Of a DNA stretch of 50,120 nucleotides, positions 96 to 45,054 are shown piece after piece. The notes below the pieces were generated by a model. It saw nothing but the letters and a program-made list of their open reading frames with translations. It was not told the DNA's origin and ran no database searches. The stretch lies in NCBI GenBank assembly GCA_016873835.1, contig VGVY01000007.1:1-50120 (forward strand), in the 5' to 3' direction. The DNA comes from Ignavibacteria bacterium (lineage in GTDB: Bacteria > Bacteroidota > Ignavibacteria > Ignavibacteriales > Melioribacteraceae). Each line of letters starts with the position of its first letter. Position 1 is the stretch's first letter. The position numbers and the translations under genes are program-made.

Positions 96-203
96 TCAAT
101 AATAGCTTACTGTTCTAGTTTCCCATGTTGGGTATTTATTAACTAATATCCATTCGCCAGATTAATAGTTTGGGTCACAATCACAAGGGTCTTGGTTTTG
201 GCA
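96..203 (-). pseudogene. C-terminal relic of a second copy of the 778-1914 lipoprotein
   Basis: Reading the minus strand from 203 to 96 gives a peptide starting CQNQDPCDCDPNY, then an in-frame TAA, then SGEWILVNKYPTWETRTV and a stop. It aligns with the last 34 residues of the neighbouring lipoprotein (CSKTNPCDYNQNDLADGW, then VLSNTYATSTTRITTR): the CxxxxPCD spacing, the G-W pair followed by a hydrophobic residue and the TxTR ending are shared. Nothing of the rest of the protein is present. The simplest reading is a remnant of a duplicated gene, left after recombination or decay, with the 208-768 gene between relic and parent. Bases 1-95 show nothing recognisable. Confidence 0.6.
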
Positions 204-207
204 CCGA

Positions 208-768
208 TTAAATTTCCCATTCAAATCCAATGCTTATTTTAATTAAATAATCTAACTCAATTGGATTTAAAGCGATTAGTAATTCATGTCCAATTTTTTT
301 CTTTGTTGGCACGAGGCATTGAATTTCAAAAGGAATTTTATCTGACAAATAAAAACCTATCCCACTGATTAGTAAATAGAATGTATCGTTAATTGGGTGA
401 TTAACATTGGTGGATGATATTTTTCTCCAATTATCATGAACTGTTATTCCACAGATTAGATAAATTTTTTTGTTAAAGAAATATTCACCCGCAATATATA
501 TTTCAAGCCCATTGTATTGAGAATGATCCCAGGTTAGCAAAATACCTGGTCTAATTGTGAAAAATAAATCTCTTGAAATTACACTTGAGTACGATACATA
601 TACACTTGATAAAAAAATTTGATTTCTGGTTCCTGATTCTAAAAAAGTATTTGATATGAATCTTGATTTCATTAAAAAAGGTTCATACTTAATTCCTATT
701 CTAGTTTGACTAAAATTAACAACAGATATTAAAGATAGTATTAGAATAAAATTCATTGTCTTTTTCAT
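208..768 (-). CDS. Small secreted protein, probably an outer-membrane beta-barrel
   Basis: Unrecognised family, 186 aa. The N-terminus is a Sec signal peptide (two lysines, then a hydrophobic stretch ending near VNFSQ). The remainder is made of short alternating segments rich in aromatic and glycine residues, for example around residues 65-80 and 125-140, and ends in a hydrophobic strand finishing EWEI, which fits a small outer-membrane barrel. It starts 9 bases after the stop of the upstream lipoprotein gene with only a weak purine-rich ribosome site, so translational coupling is likely. The barrel assignment is inference from composition; no motif gives a function. Confidence 0.6.
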   Translation of the reverse strand: MKKTMNFILILSLISVVNFSQTRIGIKYEPFLMKSRFISNTFLESGTRNQIFLSSVYVSYSSVISRDLFFTIRPGILLTWDHSQYNGLEIYIAGEYFFNKKIYLICGITVHDNWRKISSTNVNHPINDTFYLLISGIGFYLSDKIPFEIQCLVPTKKKIGHELLIALNPIELDYLIKISIGFEWEI

Positions 769-1914: not shown

Positions 1915-1929
1915 TAGTGTTAAAAATAT

Positions 1930-1944
1930 GTGAGTGAGTGAGTG
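1930..1944. repeat. TGAG tetranucleotide repeat in a lipoprotein signal-peptide region
   Basis: About 3.75 units of GTGA/TGAG lie between the best start codon (ATG at 1970, minus strand) and the open frame beginning at 1914. A gain of one unit or loss of two puts the ATG in frame. A second short repeat, ATTG twice, sits beside it at about 1949-1958. Tetranucleotide tracts in signal-peptide regions are classical contingency loci, although this one is short. Confidence 0.55.
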
Positions 1945-2071
1945 GTAAATTGATTGATTAATTTTTTCATATACCCTCCGTTTAATTTAAAGAATTTAAA
2001 CCCCTATTTAAACTGATTAATAATTTTAAAATAAGCAAGTGAAAATTTTGGGTATAATAATTTTGTTTAAT

Positions 2072-44352: not shown

Positions 44353-45054
44353 TTATTTTATATTATAATCTACAAGGACAATTTTATATTTGAGATCATT
44401 TACTAAGTCACCTCTTATTTCAACTCCGATAAGACCTACCCCAGGTGAATAATAGAGATAATAATCCCAATTCTCAGCCACATCTTCCTCTGGTTTTTGT
44501 CTAAAATGATAGACAAGACACCTAAATTCACCAATTTCAGTATTGATTCTTTCATTTGTAGCTTTACAAGTGTATCTTAAAGTACTGCTAGGCTTAAATT
44601 CAAATCTTTGATTTATTAAATGATAATACATATATGGGACTTCCCATATCTCACCTTGACTAACTGGATATTTCAGATATAGGAATTTCTGGAAGATTGT
44701 ATCTTTTTCCGAAATTCCACCTAAGTAATATAATCCATTATTTAAATTACCATAAATCCATCTGGCTTTAGCATAAGTATTTTCACCAAATCTCCTTGTT
44801 TGTACTCCCCCCCTGTAATTCTTTCCTTCAATGTTAACTAATATTTCCTCATCAATGGTCATTACAAGGGAATCGGTTAAACCCGGAAGTATTTCACCTC
44901 TTGACGAATAAGTATAACTTATATATTTCCAGGAATTGCCTATTGAAATGGGGTATAATACAGGTTTATCAACTACTTCTACTGGATTTTCACATGAACA
45001 AATGAGAAGAATCAACAATATTAATCTATTCGGCATTTTTTTATTTTCAATCAT
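44353..45054 (-). CDS. Hypothetical lipoprotein, first neighbour of the T9SS protease
   Basis: 233 aa from the ATG at 45054, chosen because AAAAGGAG lies eight bases upstream and a lipoprotein signal (LILLILLICSC, Cys21) follows; the frame is open further upstream but with no signal. The mature part begins YPISIGNSWKYISYTY, then beta-rich sequence. That YP-hydrophobic-x-x-G-x-x-W-x-Y start recurs in the next lipoprotein gene (FFPLRAGQKWTYKMI), so both belong to the same family of small beta-barrel lipoproteins. Function unknown. It ends 19 bases before the protease gene. Confidence 0.68.
   Translation of the reverse strand: MIENKKMPNRLILLILLICSCENPVEVVDKPVLYPISIGNSWKYISYTYSSRGEILPGLTDSLVMTIDEEILVNIEGKNYRGGVQTRRFGENTYAKARWIYGNLNNGLYYLGGISEKDTIFQKFLYLKYPVSQGEIWEVPYMYYHLINQRFEFKPSSTLRYTCKATNERINTEIGEFRCLVYHFRQKPEEDVAENWDYYLYYSPGVGLIGVEIRGDLVNDLKYKIVLVDYNIK

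Follow-up and report, generated by a model that had tools for sequence, protein, structure and literature searches.

In this study, we have identified what is very probably a family of lipoproteins switched by short repeats at the 5' ends of their genes. The analysis started from one gene on the minus strand of a 50,120-nucleotide stretch of an Ignavibacteria bacterium genome (contig VGVY01000007.1; the whole stretch is referred to below as the window). This gene is probably a contingency locus that still takes part in the switched family. The window copy is assembled OFF, with its start and its body in different frames, and it is presumably OFF in most cells. The weight of the case lies in the place of the repeat array within the gene and in what relatives of the gene carry at that place.

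Results

The start and the body of the window gene

The gene has a good start, an ATG at 1970-1968 (minus strand) with the Shine-Dalgarno sequence GGAGGG (1979-1974) 5' of it; purine-rich sites likewise precede the starts of its relatives. As assembled, the frame of this ATG (1970-1920) gives an OFF product of 16 codons, MKKLINQFTTHSLTYF, and then meets a TAA codon (1922-1920). The body lies in another frame, which is open for 402 codons (1986-781, minus strand; translation ...HSLTHIFLTLLIITFFNFCSEEK), ends with a stop codon at 780-778 and has its first listed start at TTG 1914. This frame holds the hydrophobic core of a signal peptide and a lipobox-like Cys (1929-1888, minus strand, with the Cys codon at 1890-1888; ...IFLTLLIITFFNFC). 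From TTG 1914, the predicted lipoprotein body runs for 378 codons (1914-778, minus strand) through a KDKDK-rich linker and then a conserved domain of approximately 300 amino acids. The n-region and the core with its Cys, which together would make up a signal peptide, are split over two frames. The Cys codon lies 80 nt from the ATG, or 2 mod 3; therefore, the start does not share the frame of the body, in agreement with the 56-base offset between the ATG and the TTG.

Between the start and the hydrophobic core lies a perfect tetranucleotide array of 15 bp (1930-1944), which reads (GTGA)3.75 on the plus strand and CTCA (CACTCACTCACTCAC) on the coding strand, where it codes for THSLT. An ATTG/AATC repeat of 11 bp adjoins it at about 1949-1959; this repeat was found by eye and is under the tandem-repeat threshold. 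An AATC repeat likewise adjoins a TTCA array in genome G057. A first-pass annotation of the window had described the Shine-Dalgarno-led ATG and the signal-peptide-like frame that it opens and that runs into a stop, the TTG in the middle of a hydrophobic segment ahead of the lipobox-like Cys, the 56-base offset, and the 3.75-unit repeat with its ATTG neighbor, and the sequence bore out each of these elements. We propose, in line with that annotation, that the array at 1930-1944 is a slippage switch.

Taken alone, the window array is just mildly unusual, since the 650 kb sampled from the source genome (about a quarter of it) contained 3 perfect tetranucleotide arrays with lengths from 15 bp upward, where an order-2 Markov model predicts approximately 0.6. 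Its shortness (3.75 units) and the two other arrays of similar length in the 650 kb count against a switch. The same 650 kb contains a single G/C run of at least 7 nucleotides, at window positions 44807-44813, which falls within an intact lipoprotein-like open reading frame (ORF).

Downstream of the lipoprotein gene is a 186-amino-acid gene (208-768, minus strand) for a predicted secreted, outer-membrane-like protein, which is also found beside the lipoprotein gene in the G027, G016, and G001 copies; the two genes may form a functional pair. Directly behind it lies a C-terminal remnant of a second member of the lipoprotein family (102-206, minus strand; E value, 1.1e-6), and short C-terminal pieces of this kind are present in other genomes too.

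The protein family

The window protein had no family match in Pfam and NCBIfam and no solved relative in a PDB profile search, and no protein-level relatives were found in the genome contig collection; AlphaFold, given the single sequence, returned a mean pLDDT of 36, and this model was set aside. When a profile of 13 relatives was run against 79 genomes of the same bacterial family, it found members of the lipoprotein family in 33, and one genome often had several. The N-terminal Cys is invariant in all 13 aligned members, each of which has the C-terminal domain of approximately 300 amino acids, and several of which have a KDKDK-type linker. A positively charged n-region, a hydrophobic core, and a Cys approximately 20 to 40 residues from the start are present in the in-frame relatives G027, G030:C17, G067b, and G064. 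The canonical lipobox, [LVI][ASTVI][GAS]C, is absent from the window copy, which has F-N-F-C at this position; several relatives have LTSC, LLSC, or LISC. From these sequence features, the window protein is predicted to be a lipoprotein, and it is presumably located at the cell surface.

The closest relative, the G027 copy (57% identity), has an equivalent upstream ATG, an intact in-frame signal peptide, and no array. Since G027 starts at the upstream ATG, TTG is not the start of the family; the first-pass annotation had proposed orthologue starts as a check on its reading, and they do not fall at the TTG. It is accordingly scarcely credible that the window gene is an ordinary gene read from TTG 1914, with the repeat as chance 5' sequence. 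An ORF of 378 codons does follow this TTG; however, the codon has no Shine-Dalgarno sequence and sits in the middle of a hydrophobic segment, just 8 residues before the Cys, and the relatives use an upstream, Shine-Dalgarno-led start and carry arrays at the place in question.

Arrays in relatives

We surveyed family members for arrays in the zone between the start and the lipobox-like Cys. The G001 copy carries (CTCA)8.75, with the same unit and position as in the window, and the G018 copy carries (TTCA)5.5; both are out of frame. Three paralogues in G030 have poly-C tracts instead, C8 (OFF), C9 (ON), and C7 (OFF), and the G006 copy has six copies of the octamer ACCGCAAT (OFF). TTCA arrays of 34 bp (ON) and 26 bp (OFF) are found in two G067 paralogues on one contig, and one of 10 bp, or 2.5 units (ON), is found in the G064 copy. 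In total, 3 of the 10 array-bearing members, the window copy included, are ON and 7 are OFF, which is compatible with one frame in three, as for an unselected phase. The offset of the body frame takes all three values, 0, 1, and 2 mod 3, among the members.

These frames bear on two other readings of the window copy. The first, that the full protein is made from the assembled sequence by programmed ribosomal frameshifting or transcriptional slippage at the repeat, is very improbable. The homopolymer C tracts in G030 could permit slippage, but the offsets and repeat units differ from member to member, so that no one programmed shift fits them all, and programmed frameshifting was rejected; moreover, we know of no slippery heptamer in CTCA or TTCA. 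The second, an assembly or consensus error in the repeat of a genome that is truly in frame, is improbable, if somewhat less so. The source assembly consists of 187 contigs, and arrays are prone to length errors; however, any read easily spans a 15-bp array, the arrays of the relatives are both ON and OFF with differing offsets, and a mixed population would look alike and would itself favor switching.

Repeat number was compared between close copies. The G067 copy with the 26-bp array and the G064 copy with the 10-bp array are orthologues from congeneric species, and their bodies are nearly identical. They have 6.5 and 2.5 TTCA units, respectively, a difference of 16 bp, or 4 units, and they are OFF and ON, respectively. 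From 52 bp upstream of the start onward, the 1.3-kb alignment is broken by no gap other than that in the array; identity is 95.6% over the full alignment, a figure that includes poorly matching far-upstream sequence. The ON copy in G064 opens with TTG, not ATG. Likewise, the two G067 paralogues have 8.5 and 6.5 units (an 8-bp difference) and are ON and OFF, respectively, and apart from the array they are almost identical from approximately 50 bp before the start to approximately 230 bp after it. This variation was seen between species and between paralogues, not inside one population. Repeat counts in related genomes, which had been put forward as a further check, thus do differ, and the arrays and ON/OFF pairs of the relatives support the phase-variable reading of the first-pass annotation; by extension, the window copy would switch in the same way.

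In a tree of the family, the window copy groups with the array-free G027 copy and the G001 copy groups with that of G049. The two CTCA-bearing copies are therefore not sisters, and the array either arose on two occasions, arose and was later lost, or was transferred by recombination; this placement and the lack of an array in G027 count against the switch reading. In G049, the upstream region of a family member has a C9 tract (L189 7701-7709) just after TTGACA, and the next gene, which is also secreted, is preceded by a nearly identical region with a C10 tract (L189 9989-9998); judged by its position, this poly-C may perhaps be a promoter switch.

Members of the family do decay, as is evident from two further in-frame stops in the body of the G001 copy and from a stop within the signal peptide of the G016 copy. 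It is therefore possible, although unlikely, that the window gene is a relic: its family is or was phase variable, but the array in this copy has shrunk out of frame, to 3.75 units, and has left a stable pseudogene that has begun to decay. The shortness of the array, the decayed members, and the remnant of another copy nearby are in keeping with a relic. However, the body retains 378 stop-free codons, and it is under purifying selection, with a strong synonymous excess (pN, 0.28; pS, 0.76; window copy versus G027). Moreover, four-unit pentanucleotide tracts in Haemophilus switch at a high rate (PMC2651432), and a short tract therefore need not be dead. We continue to regard the window gene as probably a switched member of the family.

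Genomic distribution of the repeats

Arrays of these kinds are rare. An exact scan of the 79 related genomes (267 Mb) found TTCA arrays of at least 18 bp in 4 places, 3 of which are at the 5' ends of lipoprotein family genes; CTCA arrays, searched in a 15-bp register, were found in 3 places, 1 of them at such a 5' end. Together, 4 of the 7 places are at family 5' ends. Under uniform placement, P is about 1e-17, a rough guide and not a test of a fixed hypothesis, since the zone (50 members by 120 bp) is our own generous estimate and TTCA was chosen after one member had been found to carry it. In G030, 2 of 5 tracts of C8 or longer sit at family 5' ends; poly-C as a general switch in the surveyed genomes was rejected, because most tracts are away from gene starts. 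In G009, a C10 tract (L221, G009:C45:12865-12874) lies a few codons past the ATG of a long ORF, which codes for a hydrophobic segment further on, and is a candidate switch.

At the class level, a search of 391 genomes for (CTCA)5 gave one match, in an unrelated G046 gene. This secreted gene (L032, G046:C56:17209-17255) has 11.75 CTCA units between the ATG and the signal-peptide core, out of frame. A scan of genome contigs found at least 119 loci with long CTCA arrays. Among the matches listed, 12 of 123 CTCA arrays directly precede a hydrophobic core at the head of a long ORF, and an ATG lies close upstream in 11 of the 12. Five of these 12 come from paralogues of a single RCC1-like family, carried by a Phycisphaerae metagenome-assembled genome (MAG), and two are from Saprospiraceae. 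The same module is present in unrelated secreted genes of G046 and G057 and in genes of Phycisphaerae, Saprospiraceae, and Anaerolinea. The five RCC1-like secreted paralogues (L098, L136 [two], L150, and L171; Phycisphaerae MAG-56, JAEUIZ01) have 7.5 to 20.5 CTCA units just after the ATG, with frames both ON and OFF, and they look like a second, larger switched family.

Discussion

Three features of a contingency locus were found in this family. A perfect short repeat, with a unit that is not a multiple of 3, lies in the 5' coding region; the number of units sets the frame between start and body, as computed for the 10 array-bearing members; and in the G067/G064 pair and the G067 paralogues, the repeat number varies while the flanks are conserved. 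We postulate that 4-bp units are gained or lost through slipped-strand mispairing at replication and that the frame thereby shifts reversibly, so that the lipoprotein would be made solely when the number of units puts the start in frame with the body, that is, for one unit number in three. The CTCA and TTCA units are free of stops in every frame of the coding strand and code for LTHS and FIHS cycles, respectively. Such cycles suit the region between the n-region and the hydrophobic core, and every in-frame unit number would therefore yield a usable signal peptide. Out-of-frame unit numbers lead to a dead end of 10 to 36 amino acids.

Most known cases of repeat-based phase variation come from host-adapted bacteria. 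We consider it an even chance that the present observations reflect an overlooked general design for secreted proteins of free-living bacteria, in which the lipoprotein family repeatedly gained varied 5' switches (CTCA, TTCA, poly-C, an octamer, and perhaps a promoter poly-C) and the stop-free CTCA/TTCA module arose separately in Planctomycetota, Bacteroidota, and Chloroflexota. A family that reinvents repeat switches in this way points to strong, fluctuating selection acting on a surface protein, for which phage attack would be the obvious suspect. Mixed repeat lengths would be visible directly in metagenomes and could serve as a marker. Gene callers will start such genes at the wrong place or drop them, given that the frame is OFF in most assembled copies.

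The kind of system is known, whereas the family has no Pfam or NCBIfam match, and we found no paper on such switching in this lineage: a review of phase variation (PMC11868660) and our literature searches, with many subscription papers outside their reach, contained nothing on it. Searches that joined Ignavibacteri- with phase variation found no papers, and those with "phase variable" found unrelated matter only; for LTHS or FIHS repeat peptides, the literature found was yeast work only. Among known designs, homopolymer switches in the promoter spacer control porA and opc in Neisseria. The C9 tract after TTGACA in G049 is similar to these by sequence resemblance only, and no tract of this kind is present in the window gene.

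The family has several points in common with Haemophilus influenzae, where lic (CAAT) and hgp (CCAA) carry tetranucleotide units at the 5' ends of surface genes and paralogues have independent unit numbers, and where relatives of one gene (hmw and YadA-like genes) can carry different repeat classes (PMC2651432). In that species, three tetranucleotide units are already rated a repeat locus, the mutation rate of tetranucleotide arrays is about 1e-4 per generation, and four pentamer units suffice for switching at the speed of far longer tetranucleotide arrays (PMC2651432). Unlike the arrays described here, which have 2.5 to 8.75 units and lie in signal peptides, those of H. influenzae are for the most part longer, and the peptides they encode are chiefly hydrophilic.

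The closest known design is that of the Neisseria opa genes, which carry CTCTT pentamers in the region coding for the leader peptide (PMC3960869). In both systems, an out-of-frame repeat lies in the signal-peptide region of a surface protein, and several copies per genome each have their own repeat number. Opa, however, is a beta-barrel adhesin in the outer membrane of host-bound bacteria and has one kind of repeat unit, whereas the lipoprotein family has a different, unassigned domain and several kinds of unit and occurs in uncultured bacteria without a known host; the window protein has no homology to the Opa family in Pfam and NCBIfam. In conclusion, the best reading of this lipoprotein family is a further case of translational phase variation, brought about by slipped-strand mispairing in the manner of the opa leader peptides.
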